This document shows, piece by piece, positions 1-62,651 of a DNA stretch of 64,000 bases. The first letter of the stretch is position 1. The number at the start of each line of letters is the position of its first letter. The stretch lies in assembly GCA_947568835.1 (NCBI GenBank), contig OX387609.1, forward strand, positions 2,360,001-2,424,000, in the 5' to 3' direction. The translations under genes were made by a program, and so were the position numbers. This stretch comes from Protonemura montana. Lineage: Eukaryota; Arthropoda; Insecta; Plecoptera; Nemouridae. The notes under the pieces are model-generated. The model worked only from the letters and a program-made list of their open reading frames with translations. It searched no databases and was not told the DNA's origin.

Positions 1-385
1 CCAGCGCAGTGTTGCCTAACTTTGATCCCTCCAACCTCTCTCCCGAAAATACCTGACTCAGCGCAGTGTTGCTTAACTTTCATCCCTCCAACCTCTCTCC
101 CGAACAGAACTGGTCATGTGTATGATGGTCACCCATCCAATACCTGACCCAGCGCAGTGTTGCCTAACTTTGATCCCTCCAACCTCTCTCCCGAACAGAA
201 CTGGTCATGTGTATGATTGTCACCCATCCAAAACCTGACCCAGCGCAGTGTTGCTTAACTTTCATCCCTCCAACCTTTCTCCCGAACAGAACAGGTCATG
301 TGTATGATGGTCACCCATCCAATACCTGACTCAGCGCAGTGTTGCTTAACTTCGGTGATTTAACGAGAACCGGTGTTTCCAACAC
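1..385 (-). repeat. 5S rRNA-derived SINE array, cut by the left window edge
   Basis: Read on the minus strand, the right end (about 345-385) resembles the middle of 5S rRNA: a CGGTTCTCGT-like stretch, then ATCACCGAAGTTAAGCAAC, then GGATGGGTGACC. These are the region and internal-promoter boxes bound by TFIIIA. The 3' half is then repeated with a period of about 91 bp to the window edge. It is the same family as the arrays at 3.99, 20.9, 22.5, 23.9, 49.4, 57.8 and 61.4 kb. Confidence 0.85.
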
Positions 386-393
386 GCCAAACA

Positions 394-3749: not shown

Positions 3750-6700
3750 CTACACAAAACTGAGGCCGTATCTCTGCGAAATGTGCGGTGTGTGGGTGGA
3801 GGCCACCGCAAGCAGCAACGGCACGTCGTTGGGGTCGAGGTCTAGGGATGAAGTCAACAACTGCATGCTGCAGAACTCCGTCGACAGTAGCAGCTCTGCT
3901 AACGCGTGGCTACGTAGTAGCAGCTCCCTCAACTTGCTCTCAAGGTGCGACAGGCACTGCAACACGGAGATCGGTTTATTTTTTAGGAACACCGGTTCTT
4001 GTGAGATCACAGAAGTTAAGCAAAACTGAGCTGAGTTAGGTATTGGATGAGTGACCATCATACACATGACCAGTTCTGTTCGGGAGAGAGGTTGGAGGGA
4101 TGAAAGTTAATCAACACTGTTCTGGGTCAGGTATTGGATGTGTGACCATCATACACATGACCAGTTCTGTTCGGGAGAGAGGTTGGAGTGATGAAAGTTA
4201 AGCAACACTGCGCTGGGTCAGGTATTGGATGTGTGACCATCATACACATGACCAGTTCTGTTCGGGAGAGAGGTTGGAGGGATGAAAGTTAAGCAACACT
4301 GCGCTGGGTCAGGTATTGGATGGGTGATCATCATACACATGACCAGTTCTGTTCGGGAGAGAGGTTGGAGGGATGAAAGTGAAGCAACACTGAGCTGGGT
4401 CAGGTATTGGATGTGTGACCATCATACACATGACCAGTTCTGTTCGGGAGAGAGGTTGGAGGGATGAAAGTTAGTACAGCAACTTCACTCGCCTTGCTTA
4501 TCAACCTCTCGACAGCATGGATTTGTGGAGGAATCCTGTTGTTCGCATTGTACCGTCCTTCGGAAGGGAAGGGGAATATATATTCTGATCAATGACGCAG
4601 GCAACTTTGTCAAAACGTAAAATCTTGACAAGTGCCCCATGCAATGCCGGTTTTTTTGGTAAGATGTACTCTCTCTTTCCGTCTTCACTACAACAATTAC
4701 CCAGTCTCTTGGCACGCTATTCACATAATGGTAAGCAACTAGAGGCTGTATCCTTGCAGTTGGTACTCATATAAAACTGATCTGAACCGCACAAGAGCAA
4801 CTCACGTGATGTGGCGGAGTCTTGAGTCGACATAATAGAGCGACAGACTCGAGCATGTTGGCCACCAGCTGCGACATCCCGACTCTAACCCCGAAATTTC
4901 CGGGGCGGTCAACGACGTACGTGTGGCTAGAAACAAGGTGCACCTCCCTGCGGAAAAAGGGATGGGGCTGTGTTATCGGGAAAATTGTCAAGACTTCTCT
5001 AATCTAGTTAAAACTAGTGCTAAGGCTAAATCAAGTAGACATGCATCTAAAAACTATCAAAATCTTTCGCTAACAAATCCTCGGCTTTAAGAAAAACTAT
5101 ATAAACTGGGTTTTGAATGCTAAGTAAACGGCTACTAAATTTCCCGACGTTTCGTAACATATACTAGTTACTTCTTCAGAGGTTTGAGCAGTCCTGACAA
5201 TGTTCCTATAACTTTTTCCGATTAACTTTTGTTATCGGAAAATTGTCAGGACTGCTCAAACCCTTGAAGAAGTAACTAGTATATGTTACGAAACATCGGG
5301 AAATTTAGTTGTTCTTTACTTAGCATTCAAAACCCAGTTCAAATAGTTTTTGTTAAAACTAGTGCTAAGGTTACATCAAGTAGACATGAGTCTAAAAACC
5401 ATCATAAATTCTCGGCTTGCTTACCACGTCTGCGTGTCCGCCACGAGGCAAACCGCTTCCGTCACGTCCGCCCCCAGCGCTGATGACCGCGCCCCCAACT
5501 GCAGGTCCCTGCGTAACTCCGCCTCCCAGCCGAGGGGCGGAGCTACGCAGCCTTGCAGCAGCAAGTCGGGGACGTAACGCGGTGAAGCTCCGCCCAGTAG
5601 CGACCCGGCGAGCCCGACGTAGCGGTGATCTGGCACCTGGCAGCTGGAACAGAGACAATGAGTCTCAAAGGCTCCATTTCACATTTATACAAAGTGGTAC
5701 AAAACACCGGTTAAAATTAAGGCATTGAAATGGGGTTAGTTTTAGAAATGTACCCCAACTAGGGGTTGAAAAAGGCAAATGTGATTGAATATGAAATTAT
5801 AACTTTTTTTTGTTTATCTTTGAAGACAGTTTTTAGATTCCTTTGCAGATCCCAGTGAGTGATAATACATTATTTACACCATCAAAACATCAAGAGCCAT
5901 TAGAAGCGAATCCTTCAATTCCAACATATTTCTTTATAGCAATGATTGTTTGTTTCTTTTATTTACCTTGGTACAGCTATTCGATGTAAATACATTTTAA
6001 CATTAATACTCACATAATTATTCCTTTTCAAAATTTTTAAACAATTCTTTCCTAAAATGTAATATTGATTTTGTATTCCAAATTATGCCTCCTAATTTAT
6101 CATACTCATTCACGCCTTTAGTCAAAGTACTATTTAATTTTACTGATTTAACAAATATATTTATCTCATTTCTAATATCACGGCTAGATCATGACTTATT
6201 TCAAGTTCAGAGAAAGTTGGGAGAAGTTTGATCAGGGTCAATGACACTTGAATCACTTGGATTCTCTCACCTGGGGACTTGTAGTTCCAGGAGATGCAGA
6301 TCCCCAAAGCCAAGATCCTTAACTCCAGCGTCTTCCGAGTCCATTCCGCACCGCCTTCCAACATCCTCTGATCGTTCAAACATCGAACACGAAGCCTCCA
6401 GACTCAAGTCCCCGACCACGTCACTTTCCAAGGTCCCAACCTTCTCCAACCTTGACCTCTGCGATGCTGCCAACCCGACCACCTCACAATCACGCTTAGA
6501 ATACAAACACTTTTTACAACTGAAGAACTCCCTCCTCGTGCACGGCACCGTTCCTTCGTTCCTTCGTTCCCTAAGCAACGTCTTGCACCGATCGCAGAAT
6601 ATCTCCGTATGACAGGCACCCGATTCAAATGAACTCAGACTCGATTTGCCGATGTTTTCAGTCTTGAAACTCCCAAGCTCCGCCTCTAAATCTATCAACG

Positions 6701-9700
6701 ACGGACGAACGGTCACGACCTTTGGCTCCGCCACGTTTTCGTGACCAGACAAATTCGAGTTGAAAAACGACCGACGTTTCCCTTTAACTTCGACGTCGTC
6801 GCCGACTAAGAAAACTACTTCGGGTTTTAGCGACAGGTCGTTGCGGGCATCCGGCGCTGCCGTTTGCTTCTCGGCTTCCAGACGCCTGGAAAGCCGGGGC
6901 TCGAAGGTCTCACGATGAAATAACACGGCGGAAGTTGGAACACGGCACAGAGCGGTCACTTTTTCTGCGATAGTGTCCGAAGAAATGTGATCTACGTTCG
7001 ATTCAGTCTTACGTTGGTTCAGTCCAATGTTCTCCATCGTTGCCAGCTCCTCGATGTTCGGGTAAATGCCGAGATGTTTGCGGCAACTCGTCGATCGTTT
7101 CATGCTCCGCGGCGTCGAGGTTTGCCGGCAACGATCGTCGTGGCAACCGTCGCGTTTTTCAACGTCGATTTCACTCTCGACAGAAGCCGAGGGACGATCG
7201 AAGGTACGCAGGCCTTCGATCGAATCAAAGTCACTCTTTAATCTCTCTAAACAATCGGCCTCTTTCCTCCGCTCGCTGTCCCCAGCGACGTCTTCGCTCT
7301 CCCATTCCGCCCGCGCCGCCGACCAAAAGTTCCTGCCCTTACCGTTTCTCTCGCGCTTGCAACGCTCCATCTCTTTGTTCAAAATATCCACGGTAACGTT
7401 CAGCCGCTTCTGAACGTCGTCCGCACAGAAAACGATCTCCGGCTTCCGTTTCTCCGGCGTCAGACAAACCGTGAGCAGCGGGGAGACGAAGTTCGTCTCC
7501 GCGGAGCCGAGACTTTCGTCCGAGAAGCACCGCTGCGGCGAGGTACAGTCCGCGAGCGAGACGTCCAGCAGCGTCTGGGAGCTCGTGCCCAGGTTCGAGC
7601 CGAGATCGAACGATCGCGATATCGCCGGCGATGTTTCATCAGCGTCGTAGCGCAAGCCGACCGCTTCCTTGACTTCGCCGCAACGGATGAAGTACGAGAC
7701 GATCGAGAGCAACTTGTTGACGCAGTCTTGCTTGCGACCGGCGCTCGTGATCACCGTCTTGGCCGTCTTGCCCGGAGACCCGAGCGCTCCGTGAAGGTCG
7801 CCCAGTTGCGCCCACAACGGGTTGTACGGGTGGCTCTTAGAGAGGTCGCTCAGCTGCGGGGGGTTGACGTTGGTCAGGAATTTATTGATTGCATGGGTTA
7901 TTTGAGATCAGCTGGCTGGATCCTATGCTCTATCCAGGTTATTTGAGATCAGCTGGCTGGATCCTATGCTCTATCTAGGTTATTTAAGATCAGCTGACTG
8001 GATCCTATGCTCTATCCAGGTTATTTGAGATCAGCTGGCTGGATCCTATGCTCTATCCAGGTTATTTGAGATCAGCTGGCTGGATCCTATGCTCTATCTA
8101 GGTTATTTGAGATCAGCTGGCTGGATCCTATGCTCTATCCAGGTTATTTGAGATCAGCTGGCTGGATCCTATGCTCTATCCAGGTTATTTGAGATCAGCT
8201 GGCTGGATCCTATGCTCTATCCAGGTTATTTGAGATCAACTGACTGGATCCTATGCTCTATCCAGGTTATTTGAGATCAGCTGGCTGGATCCTATGCTCT
8301 ATCCAGGTTATTTGAGATCAACTGGCTGGATCCTATGCTCTATCCAGGTTATTTGAGATCAGCTGGCTGGATCCTATGCTCTATCCAGGTTATTTGAGAT
8401 CAGCTGGCTGGATCCTATGTTCTATCCAGGTTATTTGAGATCAGCTGGCTGGATCCTATATTCTATCCAGGTTATTTGAGATCAGCTGGCTGGATCCTAT
8501 GCTCTATCCAGGTTATTTGAGATCAGCTGGCTGGATCCTATGTTCTATCCAGGTTATTTGAGACCAGCTGGCTGGATCCTATGTTCTATCCGGGTTATTT
8601 GAGATCAGCTGGCTGGATCCTATGCTCTATCCAGGTTATTTGAGATCAGCTGGCTGGATCCTATGCTCTATCCAGGTTATTTGAGATCAGCTTGCTGGAT
8701 CCTATGTTCTATCCAGGTTATTTGAGACCAGCTGGCTGGATCCTATGTTCTATCCGGGTTATTTGAGATCAGCTGGCTGGATCCTATGCTCTATCCAGGT
8801 TATTTGAGATCAGCTGGCTGGATCCTATGCTCTATCCAGGTTATTTGAGATCAACTGGCTGGATCCTATGCTCTATCCAGGTTATTTGAGATCAGCTGGC
8901 TGGATCCTATGTTCTATCCAGGTTATTTGAGATCAGCCGGCTGGATCCTATGCTCTATCCAGGTTATTTGAGATCAGCTGGCTGGATCCTATGTTCTATC
9001 CAGGTTATTTGAGATTAGCTGGCTGGATCCTATGTTCTATCCAGGTTATTTGAGATCAGCTGGCTGGATCCAATGCTCTATCTAGGTTATTTGAGATCAG
9101 CTGGCTGGATCCTATGCTCTATCCAGGTTATTTGAGATTAGCAGTTGCAAGTGACTCACTGATTGTGGCATCACGCTGACGGAGCTTGCTGCCGTGTGCG
9201 GTGGTGGAGAGTTCGGTGGCCAGACGGAGTTGACCCAGCCAAGGTGATGAGTTAGAACACCTGTCACCAGAGTGCTCACAAAGCTGAGTGCCGCGGAGGG
9301 AGATCAAAGTAGCATTAGCAATTTAATCGGCTGGTCAATTCTGAACCAGTGAATTACAACTTTACACCCAAATTTACTGAAGTTTAGTTTAAACTCGGCT
9401 TTGTGGACACGGCATATTCAAATTTTTGAGAAGTTTTTACAGTTTCTAATAATTAAATACTTTGTGCATTGCAAGCATTTGCAATTTAAATCAGATTTGC
9501 AAATATTGTTTCAGTATAAATCCATAAATAAAATGATTACGCAAAGGTAGAAATGTTATGATAAGTTTTTCGGTTTTGCTCTGCATTGAAGAGGTTTGTG
9601 GCCCTAGAACGGGTCTCACGTCTCCACGTTTCAACAAGGCATATCAAGTGATCTTCAAGAAACGTCGATCAAGAAACGTCGAAACGTCGAGACCCTTTCC

Positions 9701-12700
9701 AGGGCTACAAACCTCTTCTGAAAAACATATAACATCAAACCATGGCTCTGAAAATAACCACTCAACCAAAGATAGAAATAACATTAATATGTCAGTTCCC
9801 ATATTGACAAGCTTCGCTCTCTTACAAGTTGGTAGCCTTGGTGTCCAGCGTAGCAATCAGCTGACACAGGTCTTGCAAGAAGCCGGCAGCAAGGCAATGC
9901 TGACCGCCGGCACCGAGACAGATCCACATGGGAGTAGCCAGCCTCGGCAGACAGAGGAGATCATGGAACGAACGTTGCATCTCCTGCCAGCCTTCGTGAA
10001 CAACGTGCACGAACATCTCCTTGCGCGCGTACGCTCTTTCAACTGACAGTCGCAGACGCTCGACCATCGTTTCAACGACGGAGATGTGTTCGAAGATGAA
10101 CGCTTCCATGTCTCTGGAAAGTTAACGTGTTAACGATTTGTTAATTTGTTATTTGCTCGGCAACAGCTCGGTAATTAACTGTCTGTTAAGTAGTTAGCGT
10201 AACGCTGAAAAAAAAGTACCAAAGGTCTACCAACAATTGACAAAGCATGATAAGCACGAGTACAAGCACCAGCGACGTAGAGATCGTTTTAAATCTACGT
10301 TGAGTTCAATAATAATAATAATAATAATAATAGTTTATTTATCACAATTGGCCGCTGTTGGCATGAGACATGTCGATATATATATATACAATTCACAATT
10401 CACATTGTACAAGACAAAAATTCGTCAAATGTTTTGAATCTGGCGGTTTACTGAGTAGGCTTTCGCTCGGCTATCACTTGTGTTTTCAGCAGAATCCATA
10501 CAAGATTATATTGACGTATATAAAACGCTTACGGGAAGATTTCAACAAAGTTATGTTTATTTTTGCTTGTTGACTAGTTCCTTAAAGTAGCAGTGAGTTA
10601 GCAACGGTTGTTGACATCTGTACAAGCAAATAATCTAGAAACGGAGAACTCGTAAGTCAGAAAAGATCGCCTGCCTTGTTTGTTGAGAAAATGCGATGTG
10701 ATTGGTTTGGCAAAAGTTGGATTAAACATGGCAACATTTTTAAATGCTCTGCATAGTGAATTGTGTGCAGTCCCATAGGATAACTAAGTATTAACTTTCA
10801 TCTGCACTATGCTTGTGCTTATTGCTATGTCAATTGTGTGCAGTCCCATAGGATAACCAAGTTTTAAGATCCTTGTGTGCTATGCTTGTGCTTATTGCTA
10901 TGTCAATTGTGTGCAGTCCCATATGATAACCAAGTTTTAAGATCCTTGTGTGCTATGCTTGTGCTTATTGCGTAGTGAATTGTGTGCAGTCCCATATGAT
11001 AACCAAGTTTTAAGATCCTTGTGTGCTATGCTTGTGCTTATTGCTATGTCAATTGTGTGCAGTCCCTTAGGATAACTAAGTTTTAACTTTCATCTGCAAT
11101 ATGATTGAGCTTATTGCTATGTCAATTAGGGTCAGATATTAGGGTCAGATGGACCTTATGTCAATCTATTTAGGGATCCAATTTACCATTCGAGTAAAAT
11201 GCTGATTGTATTTCACTCACCTGCGCTGTTCCTCTGTCAACGTTACGATGACGCAAAGACCGAGCCGCGTGCGACGATGACCGACAGCAGCGGCGGCGGC
11301 ACAGTCCCCGTTGCTGCCGTGAGCCAGCTCCAATGAAGTGCTCATACTACGCATCCATCGTCGCTGAAGGCTGGACAAACTGCCGCCCGACTGCCCCACC
11401 GAACCCAAGCCTATAAGATAAAACAAAGCAATCGTTTACTATTAGAAACATTAATAACCTCTCAACAACTGGTACCTATAAATGATCTATTGTCAAGCAG
11501 CTCAATTGGTTAGAGCAAAACATGCAACTAGGGGATATCGGGATTTCCCCTTTGGGCACCAATTACTGAGGGGTTATTAGTGTTCGTAATAATAAAATAC
11601 TTTGCACATTTAAATCACATTTTAAAACGTGGCAATAGCTTCAAAGTAGTTTGGATACTTGGCTAGGACAACAGCATGGGCCTCCAGTATCGTGATAGTT
11701 TGACACATGAAAAATATCCAGAGGTGATAAAGGATTTTGTTGATTCGCTGATGTTTTCTACAACGGATCGAAGACCAGCAAGCATTACGTGTAACGATGG
11801 TAAAGCCGGTGGCAAACCGGGATGATATCCGTACGCATATTTCTCCGTCGTTGCTCTTGTTTGACTCACTGTTTCGTGAGCTCGCCGGGCTGTTTAGCGG
11901 AGTCCACGACCCAACGCTGGAAACGGAACGTAAAGAAAGATCGCAGCCGAACCCGCTGTCTCCGGCGGAGCTTTGCGGGACATCGCGGGCGCAGCTTTCC
12001 GCTTCGGAGCCGCTCATCGAGTTCAACGAGCTGCCCAACGAGTCTTCCAGGCTACAACAGAGCCACGTTTCAGTGAACGATGGAGATTTTACTAAGATAT
12101 TTCTTTAAGGTATTGCTATAGAATATGACCGACATCTGAAACGGGCGATGCACGACCTGTCTATTAGACAATTAAAAAAAGGCCGTGTTGGCAATTTTTG
12201 TTGATGGTTTTTATCCTGCAAATACTTTAAGCAAAACCTAGTGGAGAGGAGTCATGCAAACATTTTCTGCATTCCCTTTGTTCCTAAACTGACGAAGACT
12301 TTTATGCCGAAACTTTGAACTTTCGATTTCTTTTACCATCACACTCCCAACTAATTTAAGTTATTTGTTACTAATTATTAGTTATGAACTTCTACTAAGT
12401 TTAATCACCTTCCTACTCATATAAGATGCAAGGAAGACGACGCAGCCTTTCAGTCAAAGTCTTAAACTGTTTTTAATAGCAAACCCTTTCTACTCAACAG
12501 CTGAGTATTTTTATATAAAATCTTAATTTATTATATTTTAATTTTATTATAATGACTTGTTTATATGTTTTACTGACTATGTTTATATCATCTATGTATG
12601 ATCAACTCAAACAATAAACAACATTTACTATCCAATTATTTACATAAGAATTTTGCATGGTTCCTATAATAAATACCAATCCGATATCTAAAGATCCATC

Positions 12701-17019: not shown

Positions 17020-17085
17020 TTTGTGGTGTTTAACGACGCACTGTTTTGACAACTGGCCCTGCGGCACTGGTCTAATGGCCTCGGA
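17020..17085 (-). repeat. 5S-SINE tail fragment
   Basis: GTGGTGTTTAACGACGCACT then GCGGCACTGGTCTAATGGC is the extreme 3' end of the 5S-derived element in reverse orientation. No head or array follows. Confidence 0.75.
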
Positions 17086-18010: not shown

Positions 18011-18067
18011 AATTAAAATTCAATCAAAATTAAATTTTATGTGATAAAATCCTTTCAAAGCCATGTG

Positions 18068-18230
18068 TCCAAGTAGCTCAATGGATTAGAGCAACACCCG
18101 CGACAGGTGGAGATCGGGGTCCAAGTAGCTCAATGGTTTAGAGCAACACCCGCGACAGGTGGAGATCGGGGTTTGAGTCCCCTTTTGGGCATCAATTTTT
18201 GAGACGGCTATAGTGTTCCTAACAATAAAT
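18068..18230 (+). repeat. tRNA-derived SINE with duplicated tRNA 5' half
   Basis: The head TCCAAGTAGCTCAATGGATT...GGTGGAGATCGGGG occurs twice in tandem (starting 18068 and 18120). Only the second copy continues into a B box (GGGTTTGAGTCCCC) and the tail TTTTGGGCATCAATTTTTGA. The 52-bp period is the same as in the larger array at 62.7 kb. Confidence 0.85.
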
Positions 18231-20924: not shown

Positions 20925-21892
20925 ATTTTTATGTTTAATGACGCACTGTTTTGACAACGTGCCATGCGGCACTGGTCTAATGGCGTCGGTGAATGAGTGG
21001 ATGATGATGAGGTTGATGATGAACCTAACCTAGTCTAGAACAGAGGAAGGGAAACTCGGTGCCGGCACGTAGCCTACTCCTGTTCAAGACCAAGGGGACC
21101 ACCGGCTTAACGTCCCTTCCGAAGGGCGGTACAACGCGAACAACAGGATTCCTCCACAAATCCATGCTGTCGAGAGGTTGATAAGCAAGGCGAGTGAAGT
21201 TGCTGTACTAACTTTCATCACTCCAACCTCTCTCCCGAACAGAACTGGTCATGTGTATGATGGTCACCCATTCAATACCTGACCCAGCGCAGTGTTGCTT
21301 AACTTTCATCCCTCCAACCTCTCTCCCAAACAGAACTGGTCATGTGTATGATGGTCACCCATCCAATACCTGACTCAGTGCAGTGTTGCTTAACTTTCAT
21401 CCCTCCAACCTCTCTCCCGAACATAACTGGTCATGTGTATGATGGTCACCCATCCAATACCTGACTCAGCGCAGTGTTGCTTAACTTTCATCCCTCCAAC
21501 CTCTCTCCCGAACATAACTGGTCATGTGTATGATGGTCACCCATCCAATACCTGAACCAGCACAGTGTTGCTTAACTTTCATCCCTCCAACCTCTCTCCC
21601 GAACAGAACTGGTCATGTGTATGATGGTCACCCATCCAATACCTGACTCAGCGCACTGTTGCTTAACTTTCATCCCTCCAACCTCTCTCCCGAACAGAAC
21701 TGGTCATGTGTATGATGGCCACCCATCCAATACCTGACCCAGCGCAGTGTTGCTTAACTTTCATCCCTCCAACTTCTCTCCCGAACAGAACTGGTCATGT
21801 GTATGATGGTCACCCATCCAATAACTGACACAGCGCAGTGCTACTTAACTTCGGTGATCTCACGAGGACACGACAAACCGTTCGGTTCTTAC
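20925..21892 (-). repeat. 5S-derived SINE array with full tail
   Basis: In reverse: tail end (TTTAATGACGCACTGTTTTG) at 20930, GATGATGATGAGG, CCTAACCTAGTC, the CGTCCCTTCCGAAGGGCGGT region, then about seven 91-bp units, and the 5S head (GGTGATCTCACGAGGACACG, CAAACCGTTCGGTT) at the right. It is head to head with the array at 22.55 kb across about 650 bp. Confidence 0.9.
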
Positions 21893-22544
21893 AGGTTACA
21901 GTCAAAATTACCAAAAACAAAATGTGGATATATTTTTTTTATTTTTTTTAATCTCTTTCCAACCTGTTGGACCTATAACGGTAAGTACCCACATGTGTCT
22001 TTACAGCTCTAGGATATTAAAATATGTTTTAACTCAGAGTTGAAGCCACTAAATTTCTGAAACAGAAGAATATGTTGTGGTTGTGGCCGTGGCAACTCAG
22101 TTAACTCCCAATTTATTTAGGAGTCAAGATAATTGTAATACCAGGCATTAGAGAAGTAACCTACCTGTACGAAAGTTACCTGAAGAGATGATAGACAATT
22201 TATTTTTAGTTTTAGTATACAATGTTTTATAAACCAAAAATTTGATACGGCCACTTTTTGATGGTTGCAATATATGACAGGTACAATTTGATAGATCTAC
22301 AAAACAGATGTCGGCTAACTACAAGTTTTACTGTTCCAAAATAAGGAAGCGTTGAAAAACAATTACAAGGTCTAGAACAACACGGAATACGTGAGTAAAA
22401 ATTGCATTTAATTACGATGAATTTATGCGCCTTATTCAAATAATAATTGCATGTACACATGTAATTACAGAATTAAGATTTGCAGCTTCTGAAAAAATGC
22501 GTTGCAAATAATAATTATATAACTCATTCAAACCTCTGCTTCTA
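21893..22544. other. spacer between two head-to-head 5S arrays
   Basis: AT-rich; no coding frame supported. Confidence 0.5.
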
Positions 22545-22547
22545 GGA

Positions 22548-23535
22548 ATAACCTAACGGTTTGTCGTGTTGGAAACACACGTTCTCATGAGATCACCGAA
22601 GTTAAGCAACACTGCACTGGGTCAGGTATTGGATGGGTGACCATCATACACATGACCAGTTCTGTTCGGGAGAGAGGTTTGAGGGATGAAAGTTAAGCAA
22701 CACTGCGCTGGGTCAGGTATTGGATGGGTGACCATTATACACATGACCAGTTCTGTTCGGGAGAGAGGTTGGAGGGATGAAAGATAAGCAACACTGCGCT
22801 GGGTCAGGTATTGAATGGGTGACCATCATACACACGACCAGTTCTGTTCGGGAGAGAGGTTGGAGGGATGAAAGTTAAGCAATACTGCGCTGGGTCAGGT
22901 ATTGGATGGGTGACCATCATACACATGACCAGTTCTGTTCGGGAGAGAGGTTTGAGGGATGAAAGTTAAGCAACACTGCGCTGGGTCAGGTATTGGATGG
23001 GTGACCATTATACACATGACCAGTTCTGTTCGGGAGAGAGGTTGGAGGGATGAAAGTTAAGCAACACTGCGCTGGGTCAAGTATTGGATGGGTGACCATC
23101 ATGCACATGACCAGTTCTGTTCGGGAGAGAGGTTGGAGGGATGAAAGTTAAGCAACACTGCGCTGGGTCAGGTATTGGATGGGTGACCATCATACACATG
23201 ACCAGTTCTGTTCGGGAGAGAGGTTGGAGCGATGAAAGTTAGTACAGCAACTTCACTCGCCTTGCTTATCAACTTCTCGACAGCATGGATTTGTGGAGGA
23301 ATCCTGTTGTTCGCGTTGTACCGTCCTTCGGAAGCGACGTTAAGCCAGTGGTCCCCTTGGTCTTCGACAGGAGTAGGCTACGTGCAGGCACCGGGTTTTA
23401 TCTCCTCCCTTCTAGGCTAGGTTAAGTTTCTCGTCATCCTCATCATCATCCACTCATTCACCGACGCCATTAAACCAGTGCCACATGACCAGATGTCAAA
23501 ACAGTGCGTCGTTAAACACTACAAATAATAAAATT
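22548..23535 (+). repeat. 5S-derived SINE array with full tail
   Basis: Head CGTGTTGGAAACACACGTTC, then ATGAGATCACCGAAGTTAAG, seven 91-bp units to about 23232, and the tail (TACAGCAACTTCACTCGCCT ... CATCATCATCCACTCATTCA ... GTGCGTCGTTAAACACTACA) ending in AATAATAA. Confidence 0.92.
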
Positions 23536-23936
23536 TCTAGGAACACCGAATCGATCCAAGTGGCCGTGCGCTACGCCACTGTATGCACGGATGCACCCGT
23601 TGCGTTCCATGCAATTGCAACTCTTGTTGCACTGCAATGCAATTAATTAACAGATGACAGATTTATCGGCATCCTGGTCAGTGTATGTTTTTTTTTTTGC
23701 GTTGGGATCCAAGTCGCAGGGAATTCTGGATGATCTTGACGTTAATGTCGATCTCTGAGGGGGGTGGGGGGGGGGGAGGTATAGTGTGCGACGCAATTGT
23801 TTTCTGGTCGTGTTTTTACTTTTTCTGGAGGAAAAGCGATTCAACAAAGAAAATAAAATAGCTGTAAATTTTTCTAATACAAAGACTGTCTGTTAATTGG
23901 TCACATGTTTTGGATAGAACGCTTGATTTTAAACAA
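23536..23936. other. spacer with poly-G tract
   Basis: It holds a G-run (GGGGGGTGGGGGGGGGGGAG region, about 23760-23779) that could form a G-quadruplex. No gene seen. Confidence 0.4.
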
Positions 23937-24676
23937 CCGAACGGTTTGGCGTGTTGGAAACACCGGTTCTTGTTAGATCACCGAAGTTAAGCAACACTGC
24001 GCTGAGTCAGGTATTAGATGGGTGACCATCATACACATGGCCAGTTCTGTTCGGGAGAGAGGTTGAAGGGATGAAAGTTAAGCAACACTGCGCTGAGTCA
24101 GGTATTGGATGTGTGACCATCATACACATGACCAGTTCTGTTCGGGAGAGAGGTTGGAGGGATGAAAGTTAAGCAACACTGCGCTGGGTCAGGTATTGGA
24201 TGAGTGACCATCATACACATGACCAGTTCTGTTCGGGAGAGAGGTTGGAGGGATGAAAGTTAAGCAACACTGCGCTGGGTCAGGTATTGGATGGGTGACC
24301 ATCATACACATGACCAGTTCTGTTCGGGAGAGCGGTTGGAGGGATGAAAGTTAAGCAACACTGCGCTGAGTCAGGTATTGGATGGGTGACCATCATACAC
24401 ACGACCAGTTCTGTTCGGGAGAGAGGTTGGAGGAATGAAAGTTAAGCAACACTGCGCTGAGTCAAGAAATGGATGGTTTACCACCGAACTGTTTGGCGTG
24501 TTGGAAACAACGGCTACACGTGTCGGCACCGGGTTTCCCCTCATCCTTTCTAGGCTAAATTAAGCTCATAATCACCCTCATCATCATCCACTCATTCACG
24601 GACGCCATTAGACCAGTGCCGAATCGCTAGTTATTAAAACAAAGCGTCGTTAAACACAATAATCAATCAATCAATC
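23937..24676 (+). repeat. 5S-derived array with rearranged tail
   Basis: The 5S head (AACGGTTTGGCGTGTTGGAA) is followed by five 91-bp units to 24466. A second head fragment (AACTGTTTGGCGTGTTGGAA at about 24486) then joins directly to the distal tail (TCGGCACCGGGTTTCCCCTC onward), and the element ends in (AATC)n. The proximal tail is missing, which points to internal recombination or template switching. Confidence 0.88.
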
Positions 24677-31903: not shown

Positions 31904-32068
31904 CATTTCGCTCTAAAGCTTTATTTGTGCTAAGATATTTTGTTTTTAGATCTGTAGAAAGGTTTTTTTCTAACAAATATAACAATCAGAGGAATTATTT
32001 TGATAATATCACAAGTATTTTGGAATACCGCTACTGAAATCATATCTGAACTGTATTTTATGAGTAAG

Positions 32069-32850
32069 TAGCAATGCAGGGGACAGTCCTTGTGCTGGTA
32101 TCTTCTCTCACGGGCTAGACTGTAGCAATGCAGGGACAGTCCTTGTGCTGGTATCTTCTCTCACGGGCTAGACTGTAGCAATGCAGGGGACAGTCCTTGT
32201 GCTGGTATCTTCTCTCACGGGCTAGACTGTAGCAATGCAGGGGACAGTCCTTGTGCTGGTATCTTCTCTCACGGGCTAGACTGTAGCAATGCAGGGGACA
32301 GTCCTTGTGCTGGTATCTTCTCTCACGGGCTAGACTGTAGCAATGCAGGGGACAGTCCTTGTGCTGGTATCTTCTCTCACGGGCTAGACTGTAGCAATGC
32401 AGGGGACAGTCCTTGTGATGGTATCTTCTCTCACGGGCTAGACTGTAGCAATGCAGAGACAGTCCTTGTGCTGGTATCTTCTCTCACGGGCTAGACTGTA
32501 GCAATGCAGGGGACAGTCCTTGTGCTGGTATCTTCTCTCACGGGCTAGACTGTAGCAATGCAGGGACAGTCCTTGTGCTGGTATCTTCTCTCACGGGCTA
32601 GACTGTAGCAATGCAGGGGACAGTCCTTGTGCTGGTATCTTCTCTCACGGGCTAGACTGTAGCAATGCTGGGGACAGTCCTTGTGCTGGTATCTTCTCTC
32701 ACGGGCTAGACTGTAGCAATGCAGGGGACAGTCCTTGTGCTGGTATCTTCTCTCACGGGCTAGACTGTAGCAATGCAGGGGACAGTCCTTGTGCTGGTAT
32801 CTTCTCTCACGGGCTAGACTGTAGCAATGCAGGGGACAGTCCTTGTGCTG
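32069..32850. repeat. 54-bp minisatellite
   Basis: About 14.5 units of TAGCAATGCAGGGGACAGTC, CTTGTGCTGGTATCTTCTCT, CACGGGCTAGACTG. A few units are 53 bp (one G lost) or shorter. In intact stretches the minus strand is open because 54 is a multiple of 3; this creates the repetitive 115-codon frame at 32545-32892, which I do not call a gene. Confidence 0.95.
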
Positions 32851-32899: not shown

Positions 32900-34385
32900 C
32901 CGGGGCTTTTCTTGGTAGCGTCATAATTTATTTTGATTTATTATTCTCTGAGAAAATTAATAAAATATTTGTCTTTGAATGCCATACAAAATATTTCTGG
33001 TCTTCGACTTACTTAACCCCAAATATCTGGCAGAGCTGACGAAGCCGAATCTGTCTGTCAAACGCACCTTAAGTCTCCTATTAATTAGCATGTACCTAAA
33101 TGCAGTAATTAGATAGTGTCTGTTATTTTGATCGAATGAATGAGCAGAATTGAAATGGCATACCATCTTGCATTGCATACCACTCTTCACTAATTCAACT
33201 ATGCTGTCATGGGTCTTATTGCAAAATGATTGCAAATGAGAATCTACCTAAATAATTTCTCCACCGTCCATCGTGAATTGTTTTGTGTTTATTTTAATTT
33301 TTTTGCCTTAGCATAATTTTTTTTTAAATTAATTACATGCACGCTTTAATGTCATGTACTCATCTTTAAAATAATTGATTTTTGGTCTAGATTTACTTTA
33401 AGTCGCTTACTTAATAGCAACTACCTACTCTATGGAAAGTGCTTTTATATCAACGATCATCTTCATGCAATATTTTTTTTTATTCTTGACTTAAAAATTC
33501 TAGTAATTACAGTAAAAAAAGATCACTAATTTAAAGTAAACTTTGAAACTTTCTTCAATGGATTACGACCAGCTATCGCCAAAGTTTACATAATTTCAAA
33601 AATCAAACATTCCATTAACAAGTTATGTACGTGCTTAGGTATGATAACTTTGACAAATTAACAAAATATGAAAAAGCCGTTTTGTGTCTTGAAATTAAAT
33701 TTAAATATTGTCAGCAAGGTAATTAATAAAATGAGAAGGCCGGATGATCAATTTAAGAAAATGAATGATTACCAGAAACAAATCAGTTAGCTTTAATCAT
33801 CTGTTAAAATTACATCATGAATCTATGTTTAAACATAGAATACACATTGTTGAATAATACTTACCTATGTGGACAGAAACATTGTGTATATACGAGATTT
33901 GTTTAAGATTACAAGCAAGTATCAATAGTTTATACATTTCCTATGTTGCATAATTACTGAAGCAGAAAAGTTAAACGGTTTGATTTTTCATATCTTTCTT
34001 TTGGCCGTTCCGCTGTTGAGAGTTGGATTACCTGCACGTTCGGCACCATTGCTGTACATTGCTGCAAGCTTTTACCAACAAAAATACTTAAAAATAGTAC
34101 AATTTGTTTAATTACAAATTTAATTTAATTAGTCTCCAGTAATCAGTGTATTATTTAGCTTGTATTAAATTTGATACGAATATCCCTGAAGATGACAACA
34201 ACGAACGTATGTCCAGATGGAAGCCAGGAATTTGACACTCAAAGCTAATTCCGATTGGAAAATAGCTCCAAAATACACATTTGGCGTAATTTTATAACTT
34301 TGTACTCAGTTTAAGAAATAAGTTGAATTAACTGCAATCAGAGAGTGAATATAAATAAAAAAAAAAAAAAATTTTATAAAAATTT
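32900..34385. other. AT-rich spacer
   Basis: No supported gene or repeat. Confidence 0.4.
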
Positions 34386-34387
34386 TT

Positions 34388-34512
34388 AAGCCAGTTTTTC
34401 AATGATTTGTTAAGTAATTAACAAGCCGTTAGTTTTTTATTTGCAACAGACAATCAGAATATGTTTTTTTTGTTTTTTAACGGTCTGTTACGCTCTTAAC
34501 CGGACTGGAAAA
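34388..34512. mobile_element. short MITE-like repeat
   Basis: AGTTTTTCAATGATTTGTTA at the left, CAAGCCGTTAGTTTTTTATT and TTAACGGTCTGTTACGCTCT inside, ACTGGAAAACC at the right: ends roughly inverse to each other. Confidence 0.55.
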
Positions 34513-34639
34513 CCGACAATATCTCATATAAAAGTCCCGGGAAAAACATTATCTAATTTTTCTAAATGGTATTTTGATATATTGCATCTAGACCGAGGAA
34601 AGTCATATCGTATGGAGCTCCAAAAATGTATGTAATTTT

Positions 34640-36400
34640 TTTTGTTGAAAACTGCCAACAATGCCCCAAGTAAAGTCACAGTGATTTATGAACCTAAAAA
34701 ACCTTCATACGTCAACAAATTGGTTTCAATTGCTGCGTGCGGCGATCTCGTCGAATTATTCGCAAATTCCCAATAATTGGCCAAGATCATGAAAAACAGT
34801 AATAACAGTGAATTACACGTCTATTTAGACGCGATCAGAATGCAGATAGATGATGATGCAAAATCTCACAAAATCTGGAAGTCACTTTAAGCCAAATTCC
34901 CCTTTTTTTTAATCATAATTTTATTTTTATTGCATTTTTGACCCAAAAATAGATCCATATCTTTATTTTTTTGTGACCTTCGCTGGTGTGTTTTTCTTTT
35001 CAAATGGAAATGTATTACAATTGAAAGTGGCATCGCTAATGCGAGGAATTGCGAATATTATTGAAGACGCTGCACGTAAAGGTTACCTGACCTAAAGATT
35101 AAGAAATAGTTTTGCTTGGAATGTGATTGAATTTCACTTAAATATCTTCTAAGATTTATGTTTATCTCATCCTCCCGCGCAAGAATCGTTTCAACACCTG
35201 ATCCTTTATTTCATTTAACTGGATGACAATTTACTTGGGTGTCCCGATTTTTTTCAAGTTTATTTATCAATTAACCTTTGATTGTGTGTAGATTTTGTAA
35301 TAGATTTTTTCTGTGGGTAAACAAGTGCTAAAAATGAAACACTTGTGATTACCAAAGCAAGCAATTAAAATGGTTTTGTGCAATTCGATGACAGTGCCAA
35401 ATGTTTGTTGGTGTTATTTAAAAACTAGGCAATATTTTTGTAACTCGAATTTGGCAGAGAAAACACGTATCTAAGTCGGGGCATGAGAGTGAATTATTCG
35501 ATACTAATTACTCAATCAATTAACAAGTTAACTGGTAGGATATGTTTTTTTTTTCTATGGGATTTTCAAAATGCTGCTAGTTTTTTTTAGAATGTTTGCT
35601 TCGTTTTTTTATTTCAATTAGATTTATTTATGTTTGTTTTGCTACTCATCAGCTAATTAATTAATTAACTAATTACTATAAAAGGTAAAAGATGAAAGTG
35701 AGATCCATCGTTTTAGTTCTAATCAATTATTTATCTTTAGGCAATGTTTTTGTAGCAAAAAAAAAAGAAAATATACAAGAGAAATGCCTACAATTGTGTA
35801 AAAAAATTGATTCAAATGAATTTACTTTTATCGATTGAATGGTTTTTATAAATATTGGTAAAAATGCGGATGTAAATAATTCATTTTTATTAATTTTAAT
35901 CTATAAGCTATTAGTGATTTATTTTCTTTCTCATTTTACACTTTTTCTTTTCGCTTCGGATTCTTCATGCAAGAACCTGTAAATAAATCAGGACAATGCA
36001 GGTTGGGACCTTCCCAGCATTCTCATCATCAGCATAAGGATCTAAGGATCAAACAAGGATCAGATCTGAACTCTTTTAAAATGCTCAAGAACGCAACTGT
36101 GTGAAGATTTAAAAGGGTTTTTTTAACTATCATATTTTAATAGGACTTGTGTTTCATTAAAAACTAGAAATTAAATTTAAAATTCTACGTAAGATTAAGA
36201 TTTAGTAAGAAAATCCAGAAAGCGAATTTTCAGGCTATATGAAAAAACGTTAAAACAGCTCTAAATAATGAAAAAATTATAAAAAAAAAAATTGCCAAAA
36301 TCATCGAAAAAAAAAATGGCTGTTACCTCGAATTATATGCACATGAAAACCCAACCAAACCGACCCAATCTAAAAACCAGATAATTAGTATTCCCAAAGT
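34640..36400. other. AT-rich spacer upstream of the cuticle gene
   Basis: Nothing recognised. Confidence 0.4.
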
Positions 36401-49371: not shown

Positions 49372-49600
49372 GGTAACAACAGGATTCCTCCACAAATCCA
49401 TGCTGTCGAGAGGTTGATAAGCAAGGCGAGTGAAGTTGCTGTACTAACTTTCACCCCTCCAACCTCTCTCCCGAAGAGAACTGGTCATGTGTATGATGGT
49501 CACCCATCCAATACCTGACTCAGCGCAGTGTTGCTTAACTTTCATCCCTCCAACCTCTCTCCCAAACAGAACTGGTCATGTGTATGATGATCACCCATCC

Positions 49601-49636
<36 letters not shown>
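49372..49636 (-). repeat. 5S-SINE fragment ending in an (AAT)n microsatellite
   Basis: Reverse-strand tail (CAACAGGATTCCTCCACAAA), then about 1.6 array units. The second unit breaks at CACCCATCCAAT, which grows into about 12 AAT units. Confidence 0.85.
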
Positions 49637-50902: not shown

Positions 50903-51533
50903 ATGATAGCCGTGTCAGGATCGAACCTGGGACCTCCCGAATGCAAGGCAGACATGGCGCTCTCACTACCAGGATAGCCGGCCACTAGGATCGAACCTGG
51001 GACCTCCCGAATGCAAGGCAGACATGGCGCTCTCACTACTAGGATAGCTGGCCACCAGGATCGAACCTGGGACCTCCCGAATGCAAGGCAGACATGGCGC
51101 TCTCACTACCAGGATAGCCGACCACTAGGATCGAACCTGGGACCTCCCGAATGCAAGGCAGACATGGCACTCTCGCTACCAGGATAGCCGACCACCATGA
51201 CCGAACCTGGGACCTCCCGAATGCAAGGCAGACATGGCGCTCTCACTACCAGGATAGCCGACCACCGGGATCAAACCTGGGACCTCCAGAATGCAAGGCA
51301 GACATGGCGCTCTCACTATCAGGATAGCCGGCCATCAGGATCGAACCTGGGACCTCCCAAATGCAAGGCAGACATGGCACTCTCACTGCCAGGATAGCCG
51401 GCCACCAGGATCGAACCTGGGATCTCCCAAATGCAAGGCAGACATGGCGCTCTCACTACCAGGATAGCCGGCCACCAGGATTGAACCTGGGACCTCCCGA
51501 ATGCAAGGCGTAGACATAACGTGTTCCCTACCA
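50903..51533 (-). repeat. 70-bp tRNA-like tandem array, nine units
   Basis: Read on the minus strand each unit gives GGCTATCCTGGTAGTGAGAG, CGCCATGTCTGCCTTGCATT, CGGGAGGTCCCAGGTTCGAT, CC: an A-box-like start, a TTGCATT anticodon-loop-like stretch and a perfect B box (GGTTCGATCC). Unit starts are at about 50918, 50988, 51058, 51128, 51198, 51268, 51338, 51408 and 51478. Divergence is a few percent, so these are not functional tRNAs; they look like a SINE or LINE-tail module amplified in tandem. The boundary sequence ACCAGGATAGC also ends the window at 64000. Confidence 0.85.
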
Positions 51534-54435: not shown

Positions 54436-54730
54436 AGCAGATGCCGGGTACGGGTTACTTGTTTTAGATTGCCATGACAACCCTTGTTTCACCCACCCAT
54501 TACTATTACATTGTGATGAACTGCCCGATGCCGGGCACGGGTTACTTGTTTTAGATTGCTATTACAACCCTTGTTTCACCGACCCATTACTATTACATTG
54601 TGATGAACTGCCCGATGCCGGGCACGGGTTACTTGTTTTAGATTGCTATTACAACCCTTGTTTCACCCACCCATTACTATTACATTGTGATGAACCGCCC
54701 GATGCCGGGTACGGGTTACTTGTTTTAGTA
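54436..54730. repeat. 87-bp tandem repeat
   Basis: About 3.3 units of GATGCCGGGCACGGGTTACT, TGTTTTAGATTGCTATTACA, ACCCTTGTTTCACCCACCCA, starting at 54440, 54527, 54614 and 54701. Confidence 0.92.
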
Positions 54731-57814: not shown

Positions 57815-59015
57815 CACGACGGAACTGTTGGACGTGAGATCACCGAGGTTAAGCAACACTGCGCTGGGTCAGGTATTGGATGACCATCATACACATGACC
57901 AGTTCTGTTCGGGAGAGAGGCTGGAGGGTTGAAAGTTAAGCAACACTGCGCTGGGTCAGGTATTGGATGGGTGACCATCATAGACATGACCAGTTCTGTT
58001 CGGGAGAGAGGTTGGAGGGATGAAAGTTAAGCAACACTGCGCTGGGTCAGGTATTGGATGGGTGACTATCATACACATGACCAGTTCTGTTCGGGAGAGA
58101 GGTTAGAGGGATGAAAGTTAGGAACACTGCGCTGAGTCAGGTATTGGATGGGTGACCATCATACACATGACCAGTTCTGTTCGGGAGAGAGGTTGGAGGG
58201 ATGAAAGTTAAGCAGCACTGCGCTGGGTCAGGTATTGGATGGATGACCATCATACACATGACCAGTTCTGTTCGGGAGAGAGGTTGGAGGGATGAAAGTT
58301 AAGAAACACTGCGCTGAGTCAGGTATTGGATGGATGACCATCATACACATGACCAGTTCTGTTCGGTAGAGAGGTTGGAGTGATGAAAGTTAAGCAACAT
58401 TGCGCTGAGTCAGGTATTGGATGGGTGACCATCATACACATGACCTGTTCTGTTCGGGAGAGAGGTTGGAGGGATGAAAGTTAAGCAACACTGCGCTGGG
58501 TCATGTATTGGATGGGTGACCATCATAAACATGACCAATTCTGTTCGGGAGAGAGGTTGGAGGGATGAAAGTTAAGCAACACTGCGCTGGGTCATGTATT
58601 GGATGGGTGACCATCATAAACATGACCAATTCTGTTCGGGAGAGAGGTTGGAGGGATGAAAGTTAAGCAACACTGCGCTGGGTCAGGTATTGGATGGGTG
58701 ACCATCATGCACATGACCAGTTCTGTTCGGGAGAGAGGTTGGAGGGATGAAAGTTAGTACAGCAACTTCACTCGCCTTGCTTATCAACCTCTCGACAGCA
58801 TGGATTTGTGGAGGAATCCTGTTGTTCGCGTTGTTCCGTCCTTCGGAAGGGACGTTAAGCCGGTGGTCCCCTTGGTCTTCGACAGGAGTAGGTTACGTGC
58901 CGGCACCGGGTTGCCCCTCCTCCCTTCTAGGCTAGGTTAGGTTTATCATCATCCTCATCATCATCCACTCATTCACCGACGCCATTAGACCAGTGCCACA
59001 TGGCCAGTCTTTAGA
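57815..59015 (+). repeat. 5S-derived SINE array, about ten units, with tail
   Basis: The head (GTGAGATCACCGAGGTTAAG) at about 57834 is followed by about ten 91-bp units to 58748. Two consecutive units (about 58470-58650) share private variants (GTCATGTATTGG, CATAAACATGACCAATTCTG), showing recent local duplication. The tail runs to CACATGGCCAGTC at about 59010 and lacks the final GTCGTTAAACAC. Confidence 0.92.
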
Positions 59016-60366: not shown

Positions 60367-61150
60367 AAAATATCCGTGGTAACATAAGATAGCAGAATTG
60401 AGAAGCTTTGTCAGGCGATCTCAGCATCTACATGGCTACCAAACGTTGAATCTACCATTGAACCTCCTATGCTAGGCCATGATATACCCGTGGTAACATA
60501 AGATAGCAGAATTGAGAAGCTTTGTCAGGCGATCTCAGCATCTACATGGCTACCAAACGTTGAATCTACCATTGAACCTCCTATGCTAGGCCATGATGTA
60601 CCCGTGGTAACATAAGATAGCAGAATTGAGAAGCTCTGTCAGGCGATCTCAGCATCTCCATGGCTACCAAACGTTGAATCTACCATTGAACCTCCTATGC
60701 TGGGCCATGATATACGCGTGGTAACATAAGATAGCAGAATTGAGAAGCTCTGTCAGGCGATCTCAGCATCTCCATGGCTACCAAACGTTGAATCTACCAT
60801 TGAACCTCCTATGCTAGGCCATGATATACCCGTGGTAACATAAGATAGCAGAATCGAGAAGCTCTGTCAGGCGATCTCAGCATCTCCATGTCTACCAAAC
60901 GTTGAATCTATCATTGAACCTCCTATGCTAGGCCATGATATACCCGTGGTAACATAAGATAGCAGAATTGAGAAGCTCTGTCAGGCGATCTCAGCATCTC
61001 CATGGCTACCAAACGTTGAATCTACCATTGAACCTCCTATGCTAGGCAATGATATACCCGTGGTAACATAAGATAGCAGAATTGAGAAGTTCTGTCAGGC
61101 GATCTCAGCATCTCCATGGCTACCGAACGTTGAATCTACCATTGAATATT
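60367..61150. repeat. 114-bp tandem repeat downstream of the protease homologue
   Basis: About 6.8 units of CCCGTGGTAACATAAGATAG, CAGAATTGAGAAGCTCTGTC, AGGCGATCTCAGCATCTCCA, ACCAAACGTTGAATCTACCA. It lies 80-860 bp past the minus-strand stop at 61227, so part may be transcribed in the 3' UTR. Confidence 0.93.
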
Positions 61151-61226: not shown

Positions 61227-62651
61227 TCACGCTGTCCCAGCGACAGAATCAATCCAAGCTCGTTGGTCAGACACCTTGGAATAAGTGTTGGCAAGCATTG
61301 ACTTTGTGTCGCAGATATCGGTGATGACGAGACCAACGAGGAGACCGTCGGCTACCAGAGGTCCTCCGCGGTCCCCCTGCAGAAAAACAAGGTAACTTCA
61401 GTCCTGCAAGCTCATCCACTTACCCTTAAATTATTATTATTATTTGTGGTGTTTAACGACGCACTGCTGTGCCATCTGGCCATGCGGCACTGGTCTAATG
61501 GCGTCGGTGAATGAGTGGATGATGATGAGGATGATGATAAACCTAACCTAGCCAAAAAGGGAGGAGGGGAAACTCGGTACCGGCACGTAGCCAACTCCTG
61601 TCGAAGAGCACCAAGGGGACCACCGGCTTAACGTCCCTTCCGAAGGACGGTACAATGCGAACAACAGGATTCCTGCACAAATCCATGCTGTCGAGAGGTT
61701 GATAAGCAAGGCGAGTGAAGTTGCTGTACTAACTTTCATCCCTCCAACCTCTCTCCCGAACAGAACTGGTCATGTGTATGATGGTCACCCATCCAATACC
61801 TGACCCAGCGCAGTGTTGCTTAACTTTCATCCCTCCAACCTCTCTCCCGAACAGAACTGGTCATGTGTATGATGGTCACCCATCCAATACCTGACCCAGC
61901 ACAGTGTTGCTTAACTTTCATCCCTCCAAACTATCTCCCAAACAAAACTGGTCATGTGTATGATGGTCAAGCATCCAATACCTGACTCAGCGCAGTGTTG
62001 CTTAACTTTCATCCCTCCAAACTATCTCCCAAACAAAACTGGTCATGTGTATGATGGTCAAGCATCCAATACCTGACCCAGCGCAGTGTTGCTTAACTCC
62101 GGTGATCTCACGAGAACCGGTGTTTCCAACATGTCAAATTATTCGGTTACCACTTGAAGCTAAGAACAATTGTGGCCAAATCACGTCAACTTCTATTTTG
62201 AAAGCTAATTTTTACTCGATTATGAAAAATTTGGTCGTATCGCTACGTTTTTCAATCTAAATAGCACATGACACTTCAAATAAAAATATTTTTTCTGCAA
62301 CACTTTTAGCTGGTCTATTTTAAAAAAGTTTTTTGGAGAAATTTATTTTTATATATCTATGGTATCACTAAAAAAAATCTCATGCATTTGCTTCAAATTT
62401 TAATCCTGCTATATCTGAAACGTCGTAATGTCATCTTAAAAATCAGCCAATCGCAGTAGAGGACGCTCAACCTACAACGAGATTGCATTGAAAATGCTTA
62501 CCGCGCAAGGGTTCTTGTCCTCGACGGCCATGTTGGCACAAAGCATGCGTGGAGTAAACTTTGTGTGATTCAAAGTCAACATCTTGCAGGCCGGCTCGCT
62601 GTAGATGTACACGTCCACTGACTTCAGACTCATCGAGTAGTCGCGGTCGTT
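61227..62651 (-). CDS. S1-family serine protease homologue, last two exons (5' part outside window)
   Basis: Exons 62651-62502 (50 codons) and 61376-61227 (49 codons plus stop), GT-AG, phase 0. The first exon has the late part of a trypsin fold: SLKSVDVYIYSEPAC, then MLCANMAVEDKNPCA. The second begins GDRGGPLVADG, where active proteases have GDSGGP, so the nucleophile Ser195 is Arg. The SWG strand that lines the specificity pocket is replaced by VITDICD. Cys positions for the 168-182 and 191-220 disulfides are kept, and the C-terminal helix YSKVSDQRAWIDSV is typical. The fold is therefore kept but hydrolysis is not expected; such homologues act as cofactors or lectin-like proteins in arthropod immunity and development. 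The N-terminal exons, including His57 and Asp102, lie beyond 64000 or were not recognised. The intron holds a 5S-SINE array. Confidence 0.85.
61432..62145 (-). repeat. 5S-derived SINE array in the protease-homologue intron
   Basis: Starts with (ATT)n, then TTTGTGGTGTTTAACGACGC, GATGATGATGAGGATGATGA and CGTCCCTTCCGAAGGACGGT, about four units and the head (GATCTCACGAGAACCGGTGT, TTCCAACATG) at the right. It has the same orientation as the host gene. Two units share CTATCTCCCAAACAAAACTG and AAGCATCCAATACC. Confidence 0.92.

Follow-up and report, generated by a model that had tools for sequence, protein, structure and literature searches.

SINEs of the SINE3 class typically have a 3' end resembling that of a LINE. 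Tandem repeats within a retroposed, non-autonomous element are known from ape SVA, which contains a VNTR as the elements described here contain an array, the SVA VNTR not being a promoter of the 5S type. According to Kapitonov and Jurka (cited in PMC3272025), retroposed promoters of the 5S type would have little strength unless upstream signals are present. The main text of PMC3272025 uses the words “tandem,” “array,” and “satellite” zero times. Both cDNA-stage and unequal-exchange models have been put forward for the monomers of mouse L1 in the accessible sections of two studies (PMC6454616, PMC9022269), the first of which, in those sections, describes the monomers as helping promoters persist, by a mechanism that is unclear, when retrotransposition is prone to truncation (PMC6454616).

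Family design and copies in the window

We analyzed a 64-kb stretch of DNA (the window; positions 2360001-2424000 of contig C12) from a genome of 258.5 Mb in 34 contigs. One dispersed family is present in the window, in which a 5S-like head of 48 bp is followed by 1.7-10 units of 91 bp and then by a tail roughly 270 bp long (Table 1). The head (48 bp in one-unit copies) starts with ACCGAACGG and ends with ATCACCG. The unit starts with AAGTTAAGC, ends with GGGATGA and holds box A, the IE and most of box C. The tail starts with AAGTTAGTACAGC and ends with GTCGTTAAACAC and short AAT or AATC repeats, this short-repeat ending being the sole LINE-like trait seen in it; its middle part, CTTCGGAAGGGACGTTAAGCCGGTGGTCCC, is presumably similar to the central domain found in SINEs of the Deu or Nin type. 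The simplest form (head, unit, tail) is about 415 bp long. No reverse transcriptase (RT) motifs were found in open frames of at least 150 aa in 307 kb of genome sequence.

Two copies of a 6-bp direct repeat, AAGTTA, delimit the unit, one where box A begins and the other immediately ahead of the tail. Besides this register A, there is a register B with repeats of 92 bp, which consist of the entire head joined to the unit's initial 44 bases. The register B repeat starts exactly at base 1 of the element, with a microhomology of at most 1 bp at the joint, and is exemplified by locus L034 (six joints in a row), locus L033 (both strands) and the chimeric copy at 24.48 kb. Registers A and B both contain box A, the IE and the retained part of box C.

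Table 1. Members of the family in the 64-kb window, with their component parts (window coordinates).
Feature	Position	Strand	Parts
Rearranged piece	1..392	-	head 353-392, ~3.9 units; runs off window end
Partial element	3988..4569	+	cut head, five units 4013-4467, first 102 bp of tail
5'-truncated tail-only copy	17024..17084	-	10-bp TGAATTGAAT at both sides; absent from the first-pass annotation
Complete element, shortened head	20932..21886	-	head 21852-21886, seven units 21215-21851, tail 20932-21214
Complete element	22551..23519	+	head 22551-22598, seven 91-bp units 22599-23235, tail 23236-23519
Chimeric element	23936..24657	+	head 23936-23983, 5.5 units 23984-24483
Headless piece	49375..49604	-	1.7 units, 76 bp of tail
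Ten-unit element	57848..59007	+	deleted head just upstream; tail up to query position 248
Complete element	61447..62147	-	head 62100-62147, four units 61736-62098, tail 61447-61735

The 91-bp unit was recovered at all eight places named by the first-pass annotation, and Tandem Repeats Finder reports seven arrays of period 91 (at 48, 4013, 21209, 22599, 23984, 57848, and 61730). The box word GGATGGGTGACC has 47 matches in the window with up to two mismatches, against 1.7 expected, a number reached in none of 100 shuffles. The tail word GTCGTTAAACAC by itself is weak evidence, with eight matches (up to two mismatches) against 5.6 expected and as many in 21 of 100 shuffles. The annotation had assigned the order head-units-tail to all eight loci; it is complete at 20.9 (with the shortened head), 22.5, and 61.4 kb, but not at the other five. 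Similarly, the tail end GTCGTTAAACAC, described as common to all, is exact at 22.5, 23.9, and 61.4 kb and has two mismatches at 20.9 kb, but is not shared by the other four. The unit numbers, given before as 1.6 to about 10, now range from 1.7 (49.4 kb) to 10 (57.8 kb).

The complete element at 22.5 kb is flanked by a 9-bp target-site duplication, TTCTAGGAA, and the one at 20.9 kb has the 7-bp sequence CTGTAAG at each side. In the chimeric element, a second head start (24483-24513), attached through a register B joint, is spliced into tail sequence (24518-24657) at about tail position 145. Six non-consensus variants are common to units 1 and 2 of the 61.4-kb element, and three to two neighboring units of the ten-unit array, the tail of which is short of its last ~29 bp. 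The window is also rich in other tandem arrays (minisatellites) without a clear retroposon origin.

Derivation from 5S rRNA and state of the promoter boxes

The proposed derivation from 5S rRNA is supported by an ungapped comparison with the 5S gene of this genome, which a single exact pattern match placed close to the beginning of contig C15; 70 of 92 positions are identical to it, and 40 of 43 over positions 18-60. The SINE tracks bases 1-92 of the gene, past which just 5 of 27 positions agree. Using textbook limits of the boxes, ungapped agreement with this gene amounts to 13/15 for box A, 4/6 for the IE, and 14/18 for box C, the last four bases of which are missing from the unit consensus. 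Four places in the window score above the gathering score of Rfam 5S_rRNA (RF00001). Judged by sequence, the family thus has the 5S-derived 5' end with internal promoter boxes that is expected of SINE3.

We saw no purifying selection on the promoter boxes in the copies. Divergence is 2.1% in box A, 3.9% in the IE region (1.7% without site 22), and 4.0% in box C (3.3% without site 38), versus 1.9% outside the promoter. Internal initiation in inner units was considered and rejected. Based on 5S numbering, such transcripts are predicted to start at phase 44 of the unit, but only 3 of 23 headless tailed copies start within 8 bp of it (4.3 expected), and the 5' starts thus do not cluster at an inner-unit start site in the manner of mouse L1. 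Sixteen of the 23 start at phases 1-19, and at least one (L025) has head-like sequence upstream.

Abundance and linkage of head, unit, and tail

Joints were counted over the entire genome with 25-mers, on both strands and allowing up to two mismatches; reversed-word controls gave no match for any of the three joint words. The unit-to-tail joint occurs 8,278 times. The unit-to-unit word has 27,938 matches, some of them head-to-unit; since 18 of 323 matches in the subset checked in sampled sequence were really head-to-unit, about 26,000 are true unit-to-unit joints. Head-to-unit joints number 9,200, a figure that includes register B repeats, and register B joints 2,046. We estimate from the joint counts that the genome holds 33,000-36,000 units (3.0-3.2 Mb, ~1.2% of the genome) in perhaps 7,000-9,000 elements. 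The family is spread over many contigs and both strands and is, like SINE3, short, dispersed in many copies and, by its lack of RT motifs, non-coding. An apparent strand bias in one region (contig C1, 30-31.8 Mb) was discarded as a listing artefact, as the DNA itself and a second listing give both strands.

The order of the parts was read in a 333-kb sample from 49 sources, centered on pattern hits and mostly from contig C1, which contains 74 tailed pieces clear of sequence edges. Head, unit(s), and tail follow each other in 48 of these 74, of which 19 have about one unit (0.5-1.3) and 29 have two (n = 9), three (4), four (4), five (5), six, seven, eight (2 each), or ten units (1). Eleven further pieces have at least two units and no tail, the longest (L029) with 21.7 units; the tailless L013 continues into L014, which is tailed. 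L008 looks satellite-like, with 34 units, a 25-unit period and neither head nor tail, and runs past both ends of its stretch. Checking head, unit, and tail separately over the genome thus yielded thousands of joined copies, and not the tails beside unlinked 91-bp satellites that the first-pass annotation had named as the contrary outcome.

Target-site duplications and truncation

Target-site duplications, which the annotation had advised looking for, were called at a score of at least 7, with shuffled flank pairs as control. They flank 20 of 59 copies, compared with a mean of 3.6% of shuffled pairs (highest 8.5%), while 39 of the 59 have none at this score. Most are 7-15 bp long. They occur in 9 of 17 headed copies with fewer than 1.5 units, 7 of 20 headed multi-unit copies, and 4 of 22 truncated copies, one of the last four (L016) having a doubtful alignment. 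Two five-unit copies are flanked by CTAGAAGAAG (L032) and TTGAAATCC (L045), respectively, and a one-unit copy is nested in the array of another copy with a 12-bp duplication, AGAACTGGTCAT (L027). The family thus has the duplicated target sites of retroposition known from SINE3, and because they flank one-unit and multi-unit copies alike, the array is part of what was retroposed.

A number of copies lack their 5' part, with the break inside the array or the tail (such as the one at 17.0 kb), which would be in keeping with target-primed reverse transcription. For a partner LINE, 150 RVT_1 places were scored in the genome; three RVT_1 loci that were compared with the tail gave no convincing match, one of them having a weak match of 27 bp (E-value 7e-4).

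Age of the arrays and changes in place

Adjacent units differ at 4.0 of 91 positions and units of different loci at 4.4 (264 units, 55 elements). Units are thus not far more alike within than between arrays, as they would be in a satellite. We calculated a star ratio (observed pair difference divided by the summed distances to the consensus, 1 denoting a star) for 42 loci with at least three near-whole units; its median is 0.91 and its mean 0.86, with values below 0.7 at five loci. At 39 multi-unit loci, divergence is 2.2% for units versus 3.0% for tails (p = 0.03), and at 15 one-unit loci 2.3% versus 4.3% (p = 0.002), so that the gap is no larger in arrays than in one-unit copies. As units are somewhat less diverged than tails, the ages of the two need not match. 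Most arrays nevertheless date from about the time of insertion, since their units are star-like and nearly as diverged as the tails. Edge units are not more diverged than inner units, and there is no strong homogenization after insertion.

Local expansion after insertion, as claimed by the first-pass annotation, holds for some loci and fails as a general cause, the latter in view of the star-like arrays and the small difference within and between loci. At least two derived variants outside hotspots are common to 76 of 1,629 unit pairs within loci, compared with 9 of 20,000 random pairs between loci, and such pairs are found at 14 of the 42 loci. Variant lists reveal blocks with periods of two (L009, L013), three (L025 and the window array at 22.6 kb), four (L028), five (L004), and 25 units (L008). 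The three-unit block of L025 matches at full length with 99-100% identity at its own locus only and with at most 96% elsewhere among the 40 scored of 3,561 candidates. Genome-wide, a two-unit word from the 22.6-kb array has exactly two occurrences, which lie 273 bp apart within this array. These two blocks arose in place, since they are private to their loci.

No two of the sampled loci were found to share an ordered set of unit variants, as would be needed to trace an array to a particular source. Variant 34A occurs in 6 of 15 one-unit copies versus 12 of 298 internal and last array units, and because of this enrichment the one-unit copies form a partly separate lineage. A correlation by rank between the length of an array and its age (-0.30, p = 0.02, all 55 loci) was dropped, as restricting the data to the window and the 10-kb blocks gave -0.14 (p = 0.44).

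Site 22 (G/A) is mixed in 37 of 58 multi-unit elements, where free assortment predicts 39.5 (SD 2.7). We rejected mixed source arrays as its cause, since the site behaves as a hotspot: the share of 22A climbs with age (17, 25, 31, and 33%, with means at other sites of 1.3, 1.9, 2.5, and 2.5%), and units that are otherwise copy-like differ at it (61.4 kb, L027). Deaminase editing of cDNA was likewise rejected for lack of a marked asymmetry in the units, where non-CpG changes amount to 2.16% for G>A and 1.95% for C>T with site 22 excluded. The tails have a mild asymmetry (G>A 4.5%, C>T 3.1%).

Origin of the arrays

We lean, with moderate confidence, toward SINE3-type retroposons that move as promoter arrays and whose unit number shifts when they insert, or close to that time, and later in place as well. 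A backward jump between the AAGTTA repeats would have created the first 91-bp duplication; since AAGTTA occurs on both sides of the unit, a one-register jump yields the joint that is seen. Multi-unit copies would then have been retroposed as whole arrays, presumably with reverse transcription as the main step, and unit number would be reset at or close to insertion, most likely through slippage, in steps of full units, of the reverse transcriptase (or of early replication) on identical 91-bp units. Later duplication of blocks of 2-25 units in place would alter the number again. The units would act as Pol III promoters. The other tandem arrays in the window favor a DNA-level process and count against this explanation. 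So do the lack of loci with matching ordered unit variants, the lower divergence of units than of tails, the eleven tailless multi-unit pieces, and the failure to find a partner LINE among the three RVT_1 loci compared.

As a tentative extension, spare internal promoters may keep the SINE family alive, much as a Pol III version of the monomer promoter of mouse L1: 5'-truncated copies would retain whole promoters, arrays would be rebuilt at each retroposition, and a similar process would have arrayed tRNA-type promoter modules of 52 and 70 bp in this genome.

A first alternative is that one-unit SINEs insert and that all arrays grow later at the insertion site, as small newborn satellites, through unequal exchange or slippage of DNA, mostly while their units are still identical. 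We regard this as unlikely, although it would account for the 14 of 42 loci with at least two derived variants in common between units, for the private block duplications (L025, 22.6 kb) and for the 34-unit stretch of L008 with its 25-unit period, and agrees with the many unrelated minisatellites in the window and with a tRNA module that forms 13,995 tandem joints, seemingly within a palindromic non-SINE element. Under it, thousands of loci would each have had to form the identical first joint by themselves, with a repeat of just 6 bp. Moreover, headless copies that start within the array are still multi-unit, such as L014 (headless, 6.4 units, 10-bp flanking repeat with one mismatch), and most unit pairs have no derived variants in common.

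Slightly less probable, in our view, is that each insertion builds its array afresh, through a reverse transcriptase that jumps back on one-unit RNA, either at AAGTTA (joint A) or from the 5' end of the RNA (joint B). Star-like arrays that look homogeneous at birth fit such a process, as do the 6-bp microhomology at joint A and the location of joint B at the 5' end of the element, where a microhomology of at most 1 bp is as for a template-end jump. The occurrence of the same joints at thousands of loci is, however, simpler if they are inherited, and 34A marks the one-unit copies as a partly separate lineage. That heads and tails merely landed beside a pre-existing 91-bp satellite is highly improbable, since the linkage counts already refute it for the bulk of the copies, one-unit copies exist, and the 48 of 74 tailed elements ordered head-unit(s)-tail have target-site duplications outside, even if the 11 tailless pieces with at least two units (up to 21.7 in L029) and the headless and tailless 34 units of L008 would suit it.

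Comparison with known systems

The moving promoter arrays that we favor resemble SINE3 (HaSE3 of Helicoverpa, zebrafish SINE3) in their 5S head with boxes A, IE, and C, their non-coding body and their target-site duplications. SINE3 is described with one head in the available part of PMC3272025, whereas 29 of the 48 headed and tailed copies here have 2-10 promoter units. We found no description of a 5S-derived SINE with arrayed promoter units in the open-access literature, including the accessible portions of PMC10886601, PMC6947457, PMC11121367, PMC3272025, and PMC5437419.

Tandem arrays from 5S-like or SINE sequence are also formed by the 5S satellite of Hoplias and by PcH-Sat, which derives from Nin-SINE (PMC11121367, PMC5437419, in the sections available). 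According to those sections, both form satellite blocks, whereas the arrays here are mostly short and lie within dispersed elements with duplicated target sites. The family also connects the retroposition of SINEs with the way in which satellite-like arrays are born. Across its thousands of copies, a single genome provides a natural gradation of promoter number, from one unit to over ten, whose effect on array instability, on success in retroposition, and on the output of Pol III can be measured directly.

The closest parallel in behavior are the monomers of mouse L1, which, in the accessible parts of PMC6454616 and PMC9022269, are likewise tandem promoter modules in a retrotransposon with a number that varies between copies. 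The mouse modules are Pol II promoters of about 200 bp in a coding LINE (PMC11602158, available part), whereas those described here are 91 bp long, of Pol III type 1 by sequence and carried by a non-coding SINE.

Placement and variation of the 5S-derived SINE copies

The listed exact joints between the last 91-bp unit and the tail of the 5S-derived SINE are concentrated near the ends of contig C1 (33.1 Mb) of the species' own assembly (258.5 Mb, 34 contigs). Among the matches listed, which reach up to 31.2 Mb, nine lie in 0-2 Mb and 20 in 27-30 Mb, with 11 in the intervening 2-27 Mb. On other contigs the best array matches are frequently found at low or high coordinates, taken as absolute values. 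The element at 61.4 kb of the window is flanked on both sides by coding-like sequence, read by eye as a putative trypsin-type serine protease.

Within the unit, position 22 is a non-CpG hotspot of G to A change (approximately 13 times the mean rate), the frequency of which increases with locus age. The satellite-like stretch of locus L008, read outside the window, has a higher-order period of 25 units.

Features of the window and of other loci in the assembly
Feature	Location	Strand	Remarks
tRNA-like array, 52-bp module	window 18067-18172	+	A-box half in tandem, one B-box-like end
tRNA-like array, 52-bp module	window 56779-56932	-	same
tRNA-like array, 52-bp module	window 62700-62995	-	same
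tRNA-like 70-bp repeat	window 50916-51509	-	~8.5 copies; likeness by eye
Coding-like, putative trypsin-type serine protease	window 61350-62650		by eye
Minisatellite, 41-bp unit	window 7896-9142
Minisatellite, 73-bp unit	window 10759-11127
Minisatellite, 54-bp unit	window 32068-32850
Minisatellite, 87-bp unit	window 54440-54728
Minisatellite, 114-bp unit	window 60370-61146
Satellite-like 91-bp units	L008, C2, ~1.94 Mb		34 units; whole locus
Numerous reverse-transcriptase matches	C11:54000-932000		initial 0.93 Mb of C11

Other repeats and tRNA-like modules

The reverse-transcriptase matches of C11, together with locus L054, possibly represent a site-specific LINE. A putative histone H2A gene was read by eye at the end of L054. 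The 41-, 73-, 54-, and 114-bp minisatellite families are also present in other loci read; the 87-bp family was not found there.

Adjacent copies of the 70-bp tRNA-like repeat apparently overlap at GCCGGC, which belongs to both acceptor ends. In the three 52-bp arrays of the window, the single B-box-like end is preceded by 2 to 5.7 modules, and the module joint has 13,995 matches in the genome when up to two mismatches are allowed. Since these loci also hold matching pieces in inverted orientation, the carrier of the 52-bp module looks, from its sequence, palindromic rather than SINE-like.
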